A stretch of DNA of 39,078 bases from NCBI GenBank assembly GCA_001805055.1, contig MHDZ01000007.1, positions 1 through 39,078 of the forward strand. The letters are read 5' to 3'. The stretch is from Nitrospirae bacterium GWC2_57_13. GTDB taxonomy: Bacteria > Nitrospirota > UBA9217. Position numbers and translations under genes: made by a program. Below, one piece after another: positions 17,964 through 38,151 of the stretch. Below the pieces are notes generated by a model that made no database searches, was not told the origin of the DNA, and was given only the letters and a program-made list of their open reading frames with translations. The first letter of the stretch is position 1, and each line of letters begins with the position of its first letter.

Positions 17964-18036
17964 CCACCGAGGCGCGGCGACTCTAGAGCTAAAGAAAAAC
18001 TACGTGTTTACCTCCGTGCTCTCCGTGCCCCTGTGG
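17964..18036. repeat. Foldback element between tgt and yajC (CTCCGTG units)
   Basis: The left arm 17964-17988 (CCACCGAGGCGCGGCGAC...) and the reverse complement of the right arm 18012-18036 (CCACAGGGGCACGGAGAG...) agree at 16 of 25 positions without gaps. The right arm shows units CTCCGTGCT, CTCCGTGCC and a decayed third copy. It ends on the base next to the tgt stop codon. It lies inside an operon-like gene series and would form a long imperfect hairpin in the transcript. Confidence 0.6.
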
Positions 18037-19155
18037 TCAATCTATTAATGTTTCGCGCTTTGCCAAAAAAGCTTTCTTGAACTCCCCAAAAGTACCCAGC
18101 TCGATATTCCGCCTGACCTCCCGCATGAGGTTCAGGTAAAAGTACAGATTATGGACCGTGCCGAGCCGCAGTGCCAGCACCTCGCCGGCGTTAAAGAGGT
18201 GCCGAAGATAGGCCCGCGAAAAATTCCTGCACGTGGAGCAGCCGCATTCCGGGTCTATGGGGCCGGGGTCCCGCTCGTAGCGTGCGTTCCTGATCACCAC
18301 CCTGCCGAAGGACGTGAAGAACGTGCCGTTCCGGGCGTTCCGCGTCGGCATGACGCAGTCAAACATGTCGATGCCGCGGTCCACACACTCCACGAGGTCC
18401 TCAGGCGTGCCCACACCCATCAGATAGCGCGGCTGGTCTTCGGGCAGCGAGGGTACCGTTGCCTCCACCATCTCGTACATCAATGGCTTGGTCTCGCCCA
18501 CTGACAGGCCTCCGATGGCATAGCCGTCGAACCCCGTCGCCACCAGCGCCTCGGCCGACCGCTTCCTCAGCTCCGGATACATGCCGCCCTGCACGATGCC
18601 GAAGAGCGCCTGACCCCTGTCCTGTTTTGCCGCCCGGCAGCGTTCAGCCCATTGCAGTGTGCGGTCGAGCGCTTCCTGCGCGTAGTCCCGCGTCGCCGGA
18701 TAGGGAATGCACTCGTCAAAGGCCATGATGATGTCGGCGCCCAGGGCTTCCTGGATGCCAATGGCCGCCTCGGGCGTGATAACGTGCTTCGCCCCGCCGT
18801 CGAGGTGCGACTGGAAGGTCACGCCCTCGTCGGTGATCTTCCTGAGATCCGCGAGGCTGAACACCTGGAAGCCGCCGCTGTCCGTCAGGATCGGCCGCTG
18901 CCAGTTCATGAACCCGTGCAGCCCGCCGAATTCGCGTATCAGCTCGTGCCCCGGCCTGAGAAACAAGTGGTACGTGTTCGACAGGATGATCTCGGCGCCG
19001 AGCTCCGTCAGGTCCTGCGGCGACATGGTCTTGACCGTGGCCTGGGTGCCCACGGGCATGAAGACCGGGGTGCTGATCTCGCCGTGGGAAGTTAGTATCT
19101 TCCCAAGCCTGCCGGCTGTCGATGGATCGTTCTTTATCAGCGAGAATGAAAACAC
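18037..19155 (-). CDS. tgt: tRNA-guanine (queuine/preQ1) transglycosylase
   Basis: Exchanges guanine-34 of GUN-anticodon tRNAs for preQ1 in the queuosine pathway. Landmarks are [11 protein letters not shown] with the first catalytic aspartate, [35 protein letters not shown] with the nucleophilic aspartate, and the zinc site CGCSTC with a later histidine in [12 protein letters not shown] 19155 gives 372 residues, close to the usual ~375. The frame continues upstream to 19224, but that part is an intergenic inverted repeat rather than family sequence. No strong ribosome binding site is visible. It lies between argS and yajC. Confidence 0.93.
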
Positions 19156-19160
19156 AGTGT

Positions 19161-19248
19161 CAGTATGGAGTGCAGAGATTGGAGTGTGGAGAATATTGAT
19201 CTCCTCTTGCTGTACATTCCGCACTCAGCATTCGTCACTCCGCATTCG
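19161..19248. repeat. Foldback element between argS and tgt (GGAGTG/CACTCC units)
   Basis: The left arm 19161-19194 and the right arm 19216-19248 are imperfect inverted copies sharing the cores GGAGTG and GAGTGYGGA; the right arm itself is a tandem of ATTCCGCACTC / ATTCGTCACTC / ATTCG. It exactly fills the space between the argS stop (19249) and the proposed tgt start (19155), and would place a long hairpin in front of tgt. Confidence 0.55.
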
Positions 19249-36249: not shown

Positions 36250-36328
36250 AGCCGTTCAAAAAACTCATCTGTTTGAAAAAATTACTCTAAATTGAGAGAA
36301 AAGGCAAGGGAGAAAGTTATATATTTAT

Positions 36329-37843
36329 TTAAGCAGGATCAACATCTGTCGTAAATTTCTTTTTCTCCTGCTTGCAGATGATCTGGATCACGTTCCGTCC
36401 GGACCGGGCAACGGCCGGGATGCCGCCGCCCGGTTCAACCCACTGACCAGCCATGTAGAAATGATCAAGACCGGGAAGCGTCTTCCGCATGACCTTGCCG
36501 AAGCTCCACGTCTTGGGTGTGACCTGCCAGCCTTCAAAGCTGCCCTTCCAGTTGCCCGTGTAGCGCACGAACGTCGTGGGTGTTGCCACGTCGCGCATTT
36601 CTACCTGCGCCGCCAGGCCGGGAAACCGGGTGTCGAGGAGCGCGATCACGGCATCGGCAATCTTCTCTTTCTCGGCCTTGTACTGCCCTTCGTTCTCCTG
36701 CAGCGCTTTCCAGTAATCATAGTCCGTCCTGAACATCACGGTAAGGAGCGTTTTGCCCACAGGCGCGAGCGTGGGGTCGAAGTTGTAGATCCTCACGCTG
36801 AGGAAGTCCTGCTTCACCCCGCCGACCAAGACGGGTTCCTTGAGTCTGATGGCGATCCCCCCGGCAGTCTGCGGCTCTTCCTTGAACGTGCGGTTCACAC
36901 CCAACGCCACGTGCACCAGCGACGGGAATGGGATGAGATTTTCGTAGTAGCCGCGGATGGTATCATCAACATACCTGCCTTCAAGCAGGTCGAATATCGT
37001 TGCATGGCCGTCTGCTGCGGAGATAACATAGTCCACGCGGTGCTCGGTCCCATCTTCGAGCCTGACGCCGATTGCACGTCCCCGTTCAGTAAGTATCTTG
37101 GCAACGGGGGCCTTGTAGTGCATCTCACCGCCGAGCGAGAGAAAGCGCTTCTCGATGGCTCGGGAAAACTCGAGCGAGCCTCCAAGAGGATAGCCCGCAG
37201 CCTTGTTGTGCATCCAGGCAAAGGACATGAGCATGAAGGACACGGGAAAGTCGGGCATGAACAACAGGGGAAATGTTTCGCGCATCAATGGGTCCTTGAA
37301 CCGGCTGCCGTACTCCGTGAGCGAGATCTTGTTCCATTTCATAAGCATGCGCAGAAGGGAAAAATGCTTTACGATCATCTTTACCATATCAAAAAGGCCG
37401 GACAACTCGGGCGCCTTTTCCCACGGAATGCTGAACCTGGTACAGCGGCGGACAGCAGTGATGAACTCGTCGATGACCTCGGTGTCCTCCGGCGCGATCT
37501 CCTTCATGTGGCGCTCAAGGCGGTCAACATCCGTGAACACCGTAAAGCGGCGGCCATCAGCACCCTCGACCACGCCGTAGACCTCGGGGTCGATGAACGT
37601 CCTGCCCTGCACTGCACCAAGTTCCTCCCACATACGGTGGAAGCCCGCGGCCGGGCCGGAGCCAATGAGCCAGTGGATGCAGCCATTCACGATGTAGCCC
37701 TGCCGTTTCCAGGACGTGCACAGACCTCCCGGCTTCTTGTGCAGCTCAAAGATCCTGGTGCTGAACCCGTTCATCTGACCGTAGCAGCCAGCAGAAAGGC
37801 CGGCGATGCCCCCGCCGATAATGGCGATCGATCTCTTATTCAT
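36329..37843 (-). CDS. Phytoene desaturase / carotenoid-isomerase-like FAD oxidoreductase
   Basis: A 504-residue flavoprotein. The N-terminal dinucleotide-binding motif is AIIGGGIAGLSAGCYGQ, followed by FELHKKPGGLCTSW, and the C-terminal FAD motif is MAGQWVEPGGGIPAVARSGRN. This is the CrtI/CrtISO pattern, acting on polyprenoid or all-trans-retinol-like substrates. No phytoene synthase or other carotenoid gene is in the window, so the substrate is uncertain. The gap to mod (36250-36328) is AT-rich and contains the near-palindrome CTCTAAATTGAGAG. Confidence 0.85.
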   Translation of the reverse strand: MNKRSIAIIGGGIAGLSAGCYGQMNGFSTRIFELHKKPGGLCTSWKRQGYIVNGCIHWLIGSGPAAGFHRMWEELGAVQGRTFIDPEVYGVVEGADGRRFTVFTDVDRLERHMKEIAPEDTEVIDEFITAVRRCTRFSIPWEKAPELSGLFDMVKMIVKHFSLLRMLMKWNKISLTEYGSRFKDPLMRETFPLLFMPDFPVSFMLMSFAWMHNKAAGYPLGGSLEFSRAIEKRFLSLGGEMHYKAPVAKILTERGRAIGVRLEDGTEHRVDYVISAADGHATIFDLLEGRYVDDTIRGYYENLIPFPSLVHVALGVNRTFKEEPQTAGGIAIRLKEPVLVGGVKQDFLSVRIYNFDPTLAPVGKTLLTVMFRTDYDYWKALQENEGQYKAEKEKIADAVIALLDTRFPGLAAQVEMRDVATPTTFVRYTGNWKGSFEGWQVTPKTWSFGKVMRKTLPGLDHFYMAGQWVEPGGGIPAVARSGRNVIQIICKQEKKKFTTDVDPA

Positions 37844-37948
37844 GAACCGCCCCCTTCTTTACATTGCATGCTATTTCTTTTTCAAATTTGGCATACCTGC
37901 CCCTCGTCTCTCGTCTCTTACTTTTCACCTCTGACCGCCGTTTCAATG

Positions 37949-38151
37949 CTTGCGAGCTTTGCGAGAGGCAAAGTCTTGATGACTCCTTCTTTCTCACCAC
38001 GAAGTGCACGAAGAACACGAAGGAAAACGGGATCTCCGGGTTAAACACTGAACTCAAGTGTTTCCTTTGCGAACTTTGCGTCTTTGCGAGAGACGCCCTT
38101 GCTCCTGATCCAGGTACCTGCATTAAAAACCTCTGCGGCTCTGCGAGAGAC
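37949..38151. repeat. Composite foldback element (CACGAAG and CTTTGCG units)
   Basis: The 445-nt gap 37844-38288 contains four blocks. Three perfect-period units CACGAAGTG CACGAAGAA CACGAAGGA (37998-38024) face CTTTGCGAA CTTTGCGT CTTTGCGAG (38065-38090) in inverted orientation. Outside them lie CTTGCGAGCTTTGCGAGAGGC (about 37949-37970) and CTCTGCGGCTCTGCGAGAGAC (about 38131-38151), which are direct repeats of each other. The inner loop is about 37 nt. No coding sequence is seen in the gap. Confidence 0.65.

Follow-up and report, generated by a model that had tools for sequence, protein, structure and literature searches.

Five intergenic gaps in a 39,078-bp stretch of the genome of Nitrospirae bacterium GWC2_57_13 (contig MHDZ01000007.1, positions 1 to 39,078 of the forward strand; hereafter the window) contain foldbacks, imperfect inverted repeats whose arms are built from short tandem degenerate units. 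These foldbacks are likely to be members, without a gene and in part decayed, of a class of mobile foldback elements with a linked GxxExxY-family nuclease that would recognise the units. The repeats, originally predicted from the sequence of the window, are real and were mostly rightly sensed to be mobile or self-templated; the prediction missed a nuclease-bearing autonomous form, which explains the class. That the elements constitute a family is very likely, while the complete mechanism, which includes recognition of the units by the nuclease, is probable.

Tandem units in the window and the genome

The unit core used in the searches, C-R-C-N-R-A-(G/T/A) at a spacing of 8-10 bp, was chosen after inspection of the sequence. 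Twelve unit pairs occur in the window, 11 of them within the five gaps (two at a spacing of 8 bp, six at 9 bp and three at 10 bp) and the twelfth at 4081, compared with a mean of 3.1 and a maximum of 7 in 30 dinucleotide shuffles of the whole window. Runs of three units number four, against 0.03 expected. The tandem 8-10 bp units initially described in the five gaps are thus real, with 11 pairs in these gaps where about 3 would be expected across the entire window. Each unit consists of a 7-bp frame, C-R-C-N-R-A-K, and a spacer of 1-3 bp.

The repeats are also present in the rest of the genome. The fixed pattern CTTCGTGNNCTTCGTG has 19 matches genome-wide and its reversed control none, while CRCNRAGNN repeated three times has 43 matches in the same genome and its reversed control, again, none; the latter control matches only once across all 99 genomes analysed. 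An enrichment of the repeats in gaps over genes, suggested as a check by the original prediction, was borne out in a 363-kb sample of 20 stretches, which were partly contigs picked for hits and in which genes were called by a simple open reading frame (ORF) rule: 23 of the 31 clusters with at least two unit pairs lie in gaps, which make up 60,924 of the 363,312 bases (binomial 3e-12). By the same ORF rule, gaps holding at least two unit pairs comprise 20/138 of the co-directional, 5/39 of the divergent and 4/51 of the convergent gaps; the three classes differ little and indicate no clear preference for a gap orientation. Among related genomes the units are patchy.

Inverted arms of the units flank GxxExxY genes

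GxxExxY proteins and proteins of the type found in 23S rRNA intervening sequences (IVSs) are often encoded near such repeat strings, which prompted an analysis of the flanks of their genes. The genome to which the window belongs contains four GxxExxY loci (L020-L023), one of which is broken. Inverted arms of window-like units enclose the gene clearly in three of these loci and in decayed form in the broken one, and the upstream arm stops just ahead of the gene start. Genes for GxxExxY and for four-helix-bundle (fhb) proteins are both present in 14/14 genomes of the window's family.

In the flank test the upstream flank of each gene was scored against the reverse complement of the downstream flank and compared with 100 dinucleotide shuffles; 30 loci were opened per family search. 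The foldback score exceeded all 100 shuffles at 28/32 GxxExxY loci of the window's family, drawn from 13 of its 14 genomes. A scan of genome contigs returned at least 585 candidates, of which the best 80, termed the named loci, were selected and 75 were usable. The score exceeded all shuffles at 60 of these 75 loci, compared with 1/60 control flanks taken 1.25-1.5 kb away on the same contigs. Bacteroidota contribute 32 of the 80 named loci, the remainder including Planctomycetota, Thermodesulfobacteriota, Acidobacteriota, Verrucomicrobiota, Chloroflexota and Cyanobacteriota, together with one archaeon (Methanosarcinales). Omitted from the analyses were L024 (the remainder of L023), L088 (a weak hit at profile positions 4-69 inside a long open frame), L067, L073, L100 and L135 (flank too short), L109, L113 and L149 (runs of N), and L198 and L353 (ends of the element not located).

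Across 107 GxxExxY loci (106 distinct, as the identical L042 and L096 are counted twice) the units showed a usual orientation, in sense upstream of the gene at 77, in antisense downstream at 78 and both at 66, whereas none of the 60 controls displayed both; the opposite orientation was found upstream at 21 loci and downstream at 23. Unit pairs in the 66 loci are spaced mainly by 8 bp (169 pairs) and 9 bp (66), with 10 bp in only 23. The original prediction had proposed that a period near 10 bp, about one helical turn, might suit a nucleoid protein. This proposal gains no support from the data: spacings of 8 and 9 bp predominate in the gene-bearing elements, so that a 10-bp helical phase is not the design, the units are patchy among related genomes, and the GxxExxY gene located within the arms offers a better-fitting partner. 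A C.C..A tandem is present in 60/70 strong GxxExxY arms, compared with a shuffled mean of 4.5.

At the level of whole genomes, where repeats were scored present with at least two pattern matches and the gene when over the cut-off, 16 of 99 related genomes had both, three had repeats only, four had the gene only and 76 had neither. A lone pattern match (two genomes) or a gene hit below the cut-off (one genome) was scored as absence. In three of the four genomes with the gene only, arms with another unit or spacing can be seen by eye; in the fourth, G032, they are visible only faintly.

The GxxExxY protein

GxxExxY (TIGR04256/PF13366) belongs to the PD-(D/E)XK superfamily (PF13366 profile match 1.4e-39), and the protein is a predicted PD-(D/E)XK nuclease of about 120 residues whose activity we infer. 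In 12 aligned members G-x-G-x-L-E-x-x-Y and the residues of the superfamily's catalytic D...ExK...Q pattern (D67, E77-x-K79 and Q91) are invariant. The predicted structure (predicted local distance difference test score, pLDDT, 94) is closest in fold to SSO0001 (4ic1; Foldseek E 3.5e-3; Z 9.1 over 97 residues, 3.4 Å), which we take to be a Cas4 protein. Further fold matches listed include the alkaline exonuclease LHK-Exo, the homing endonuclease I-Bth0305I and Holliday junction resolvases such as Hjc; the Cas4/RecB-like nuclease branch is a candidate placement for the protein. Searched against PDB sequences, the nuclease profile gave a single hit (E 0.19).

Arms match within elements and unit class follows the protein

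The two arms of a GxxExxY element match each other better than they match those of any other opened element in the same genome at 28/30 loci (means 42.6 within elements and 24.1 for cross pairs), and the same is true of 27/28 fhb loci. At the variable positions of the arm cores the similarity is 0.88, compared with 0.62 after permutation and a maximum of 0.70 in 10,000 permutations (66 loci). Two unit classes were distinguished, AT (CRCNGAT/A, mostly 10 bp, n=9) and AG (CRCNRAG, n=89). On a tree of 120 GxxExxY proteins (98 labelled and 22 unlabelled), built from few columns, unit class changes only once, while shuffled labels require a mean of 8.7 changes and none of 500 shuffles was as low. 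The branch dividing the classes has a support of 87, and the AT class comprises only nine members. A matrix test of unit against protein gave r = 0.38, with 0/2000 permutations as high, a relationship in which recognition and common descent are not separated. The architecture of the elements, their usual orientation, the element-specific matching of the arms and the tracking of protein clade by unit class are thus apparent from the sequences themselves.

Arm mismatches, read on the coding strand, comprised 201 G.U and 201 A.C in one GxxExxY set, 36 and 43 in the other, and 83 and 70 in the fhb loci. As there is no G.U bias, pairing as RNA is not indicated.

The five window foldbacks

The window contains no GxxExxY gene, all four gene loci of the genome being on other contigs, and its elements are the gene-less form. 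Their parts are listed below with the number of 200 dinucleotide shuffles that paired as well as the natural sequence under permissive scoring; the interval tested follows each count, its ends shifted by a few bases for four of the five foldbacks.

Foldback 1, 17964-18036: arms 17964-17995 and 18005-18036, CACGGAG-type units; 1/200 (17962-18038)
Foldback 2, 25391-25586: arms 25391-25445 and 25533-25586, CGC(N)GATNAA-type 10-bp units, AT class; 2/200 (25390-25588)
Foldback 3, 27946-28063: arms 27946-27977 and 28032-28063, CACNGATNAA-type 10-bp units, AT class; 2/200 (27945-28064)
Foldback 4, 28740-28833: CACGAAG-type arm 28802-28833 and decayed CGCNAAG-like arm 28740-28767; 30/200 (28736-28838)
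Foldback 5, 37992-38093: left arm of three CACGAAG units (37998-38022), loop, right arm of three CGCAAAG units (38065-38088); 49/200 (37949-38151; two alternative cuts 13/200 and 38/200)
Left of foldback 5, 37948-37968: CGCAAAG/CGCAAGC units, probably the remnant of another element
Right of foldback 5, 38131-38149: CGCAGAG units, probably the remnant of another element

The inverted arms originally proposed for all five gaps are therefore convincing on pairing alone for foldbacks 1-3, whereas in foldbacks 4 and 5, taken singly, shuffled sequences often pair as well. Stricter scoring of the intervals first proposed gave, for elements 1 to 5, 3, 15, 11, 51 and 68 of 200 shuffles as good. The region 37949-38151 is a composite in which extra units flank foldback 5 on either side.

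Foldbacks 4 and 5 nevertheless share a loop and belong to one dispersed family. A query with 37985-38105 matched, at least in part, 44 places in the genome, which include foldback 5 and foldback 4 (28740-28830); many of these match the right arm only. By eye the loop is common to 12/16 aligned rows of the family, of which foldback 4 is an inverted copy relative to foldback 5, and the arms of this G000 family are modular. The right arm of foldback 5 also matches both arms of the gene-bearing locus L021. Foldbacks 2 and 3 have local matches among the fetched loci, and for foldback 1 no sister copy was found among these loci. L021 is surrounded by densely clustered CGCAAAG/CGCAGAG units, which apparently represent numerous copies, nested or in tandem (L187:10200-18392, G000:C53).

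Four of the five elements lie between genes of the same direction, while the fifth has an ORF neighbour without a Pfam match. Foldback 1, located between tgt and yajC, begins directly after the tgt stop codon, and foldback 4 is flanked by greA and an Rsm22-like gene. The region between foldbacks 4 and 5 includes type III restriction-modification genes (ResIII and an N6_N4 methylase) at 30955-36249. A different foldback at 13357-13432 (GTCATTCCGGGCTTGACCCGGAATCCAGA ... TCTGGATTCCCGC ... GAATGACG) does not follow the CRCNRAK design.

Presence and absence of elements, shared ends and target duplications

The early suggestion that the repeats are mobile or self-templated finds good support in the dispersed sister copies, empty sites and target-site duplications, and in the element-specific, self-matching arms. 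The GxxExxY element L042 of genome G009 is absent from the orthologous site in its congeners G005 and G012, where the nearest flanks are 76-86% identical. Similarly, G035 has a GxxExxY element in its trpG-trpD gap (trp names were read from the sequence and not assigned by profile) that is absent in G027, where 44 bp replace 492 bp between flanks that are 95% identical; nor was the element observed in G018, in which the contig stops at the far flank. The G035 region (L244, G035:C67:25600-29000) contains two GxxExxY elements of different unit class in two gaps of an apparent trp operon; in the congener G027 one of these gaps is occupied by an unrelated 546-bp insert and the second is just 44 bp long.

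In G009 gene-less copies have ends in common with the nuclease-bearing element. Thirteen gene-less foldback places were picked from the hits in G009 and G005; 11 of them agree with L042 at both ends, and the remaining two do so mainly at the right end. A second gene-less family is found in G035 and G018:

G035/G018 gene-less family, L194-L209 and L335-L354: outer ends TCCTAGAAAAAGC.../...TTTTTAGGA, TNA target duplications

Its copies are mostly 167-183 bp and 32 of the 35 measured have identical 3-bp flanks, all 32 of them TNA, a target-site duplication. Insertion at stop codons was also considered; in 5/16 copies the flanking triplet terminates a long open frame in phase, compared with 84/497 control TGA/TAA triplets, which is unconvincing. 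Comparison of genome sequences alone thus shows dispersal of gene-less copies with common arms and loops, presence and absence of full copies at orthologous sites and 3-bp target duplications in one gene-less family.

Parallel four-helix-bundle elements

The fhb (TIGR02436) elements show a parallel design with a protein unrelated to GxxExxY. The window's genome contains seven fhb loci, the genes lying inside inverted arms of mostly 7-bp units, and in the window's family the foldback score exceeded all 100 dinucleotide shuffles at 26/32 fhb loci. The best period was 7 in 20/27 loci and 8 in 6/27, and the C.C..A tandem occurred in only 1/21 fhb arms (shuffled 0.64). In many of the fhb loci L025-L031, L064-L091 and L264-L275 the arms consist of 7-8 bp units whose sequence varies per element. 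Homologues were present in 29 plasmid records, of which 12 (11 cyanobacterial and one from Azospirillum) were sampled; nine of the 12 loci lie inside inverted short-unit arms that exceed 100 plain shuffles. No novelty is claimed for the fhb arms, and cyanobacterial heptamer hairpins may, we propose, derive from fhb elements.

Comparison with known systems

Miniature inverted-repeat transposable elements (MITEs) and foldback transposons form gene-less copies with common ends and target duplications. The elements described here resemble these in their gene-less copies with common ends and, in the G035/G018 family, 3-bp duplications, but differ in having arms that are unit arrays and a linked nuclease-like gene, and no transposase was found among the matches listed for the G035 and G018 ends. 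The IVSs of 23S rRNA carry four-helix-bundle proteins (TIGR02436/PF05635), and the likeness extends to a gene between inverted arms, although here the fhb arms consist of 7-8 bp units outside rRNA genes and, in the GxxExxY elements, both the protein and the unit frame are unrelated to those of the IVS type. Inverted doublets dispersed among genes, as found in the window's genome, also characterize REPINs (repetitive extragenic palindromic doublets forming hairpins). As described in the available text of PMC3116915, these are short, non-autonomous inverted doublets in extragenic space with a related protein gene in proximity; the partner is there a tyrosine transposase (RAYT) and here a predicted PD-(D/E)XK nuclease, and the arms here are tandem degenerate units that differ per element. 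Cyanobacterial short tandemly repeated repetitive (STRR) sequences include hairpin-forming 7-bp units of unknown function (PMC2670836, in part), and degenerate heptamers pair in P6b of the tRNA-Leu intron (PMC3488679, in part). These share with the present elements degenerate tandem short units that form hairpins, and cyanobacterial plasmid fhb genes lie in such arms; in both repeat types, however, the units are 7 bp and the available text describes no linked protein. The TAACTGA repeats of Beggiatoaceae are abundant intergenic heptamers of fixed sequence, nearly all direct with one inverted set (PMC4679880, in part), whereas the arms here are inverted. The literature searched, from which subscription papers and preprints were mostly absent, yielded no description of the pairing of foldback arms with a GxxExxY gene and no occurrence of six tandem-unit strings, and the available text of PMC8934634 has nothing on repeats beside GxxExxY.

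Discussion

A full copy consists of one GxxExxY gene, for a predicted nuclease, between two inverted arms of tandem units with a 7-bp core. We suggest that the nuclease would cut at the unit array, which it would recognise in what is probably a DNA hairpin or cruciform form; excision and insertion would be completed by host replication or repair, or by a second enzyme not found here. Gene-less copies, such as those in the window, would move through protein supplied in trans. The arms may stay matched if mobility is confined to elements whose arms can pair, or if one arm serves as the template for the other.

Several observations weigh against this model. The foldback test was failed by 15/75 named loci and 4/32 family loci, the failures including the sole, broken, locus of G003, and 10/70 strong GxxExxY arms lack the C.C..A frame, several having CGCAACG-type units. 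Outside the window's family the link between repeats and gene is weak (two genomes with both, three with repeats only, four with the gene only and 76 with neither; p 0.038), and most of the co-occurrence across genomes stems from one family. Positions 2 and 5 of the AG-class unit change 12 and 18 times, respectively, on the protein tree (no shuffle test), and recognition, if any, thus tolerates changes there. The fold match to SSO0001 is only moderate. In the window the arms of foldbacks 4 and 5 pair no better than chance, and the left-arm unit type varies within their family (CACGAAG or CGCAAAG). The spacers at the L042 empty site are unaligned and no target duplication is visible at the trpG-trpD empty site, so that for gene-bearing copies the exact ends, and any target duplications, are putative. 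Finally, the extra outer ends of the G035/G018 family are missing from the three GxxExxY copies in G035; another transposase may therefore move this family.

The last point, together with the outer inverted ends themselves and the identical 3-bp flanks in 32/35 copies, is also what favours the view that the foldbacks are ordinary MITEs moved in trans by an insertion sequence (IS)-type transposase, with the GxxExxY gene as a passenger or parasite that came to lie between arms already present. TNA targets are known for some groups of the IS5 family. This view is unlikely, although it deserves more weight than the other two alternatives. Neither a transposase nor a transposon-sized carrier with such ends was evident among the matches listed for G035 and G018, which are drafts with some ends unpaired, and the gene lies between matching units across many phyla, with unit class tracking protein clade.

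Repeats that are purely self-templated, in which units expand by slippage and an arm is rewritten from its partner by hairpin-templated repair with no dedicated protein, would account for arms that match within elements but differ among elements of one genome, and for the modular arms of the G000 family. As they leave the dispersal of a common loop, the target duplications, the empty sites and the coupling of unit and protein unexplained, such an origin is highly improbable by itself; self-templating may supplement, more than supplant, the nuclease-linked mobile element. It is equally hard to credit that the foldbacks are structured RNA (terminators, stabilisers or processing signals) or regulatory DNA bound by a host protein, even though many elements occupy co-directional gaps (20/138) and a role in transcript stabilisation has been suggested for cyanobacterial STRR hairpins (PMC2670836, in part). 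G.U mismatches are not in excess over A.C, Rfam returned no match at gathering score in 17800-38300, the gap orientation classes barely differ, and the elements are patchy in relatives.

More tentatively, and with somewhat less than an even chance of being correct, the elements may represent an undescribed class of prokaryotic mobile DNA, found in many bacterial phyla and in at least one archaeon. A minimal nuclease would recognise an array of degenerate, self-complementary units, and each element would rewrite both arms together, retaining a common frame but its own unit sequence. GxxExxY elements (8-10 bp) and Avd-related fhb elements (7-8 bp) would have converged on this design, and much intergenic short-unit repeat DNA that is so far unexplained, including cyanobacterial heptamers, would be their gene-less debris.

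The data provide a likely cause, and a partner protein, for intergenic repeats that recur in distant genomes, and a testable role for GxxExxY, a family so far named by its motif alone. The fhb parallel may likewise account for the cyanobacterial heptamer hairpins, to which the available text of PMC2670836 assigns no function. If the model is correct, it would describe a mobile-element design without a classical transposase, in which the ends evolve fast yet remain matched, and the coevolution of ends and protein, as well as hairpin-templated repair, would become directly testable.

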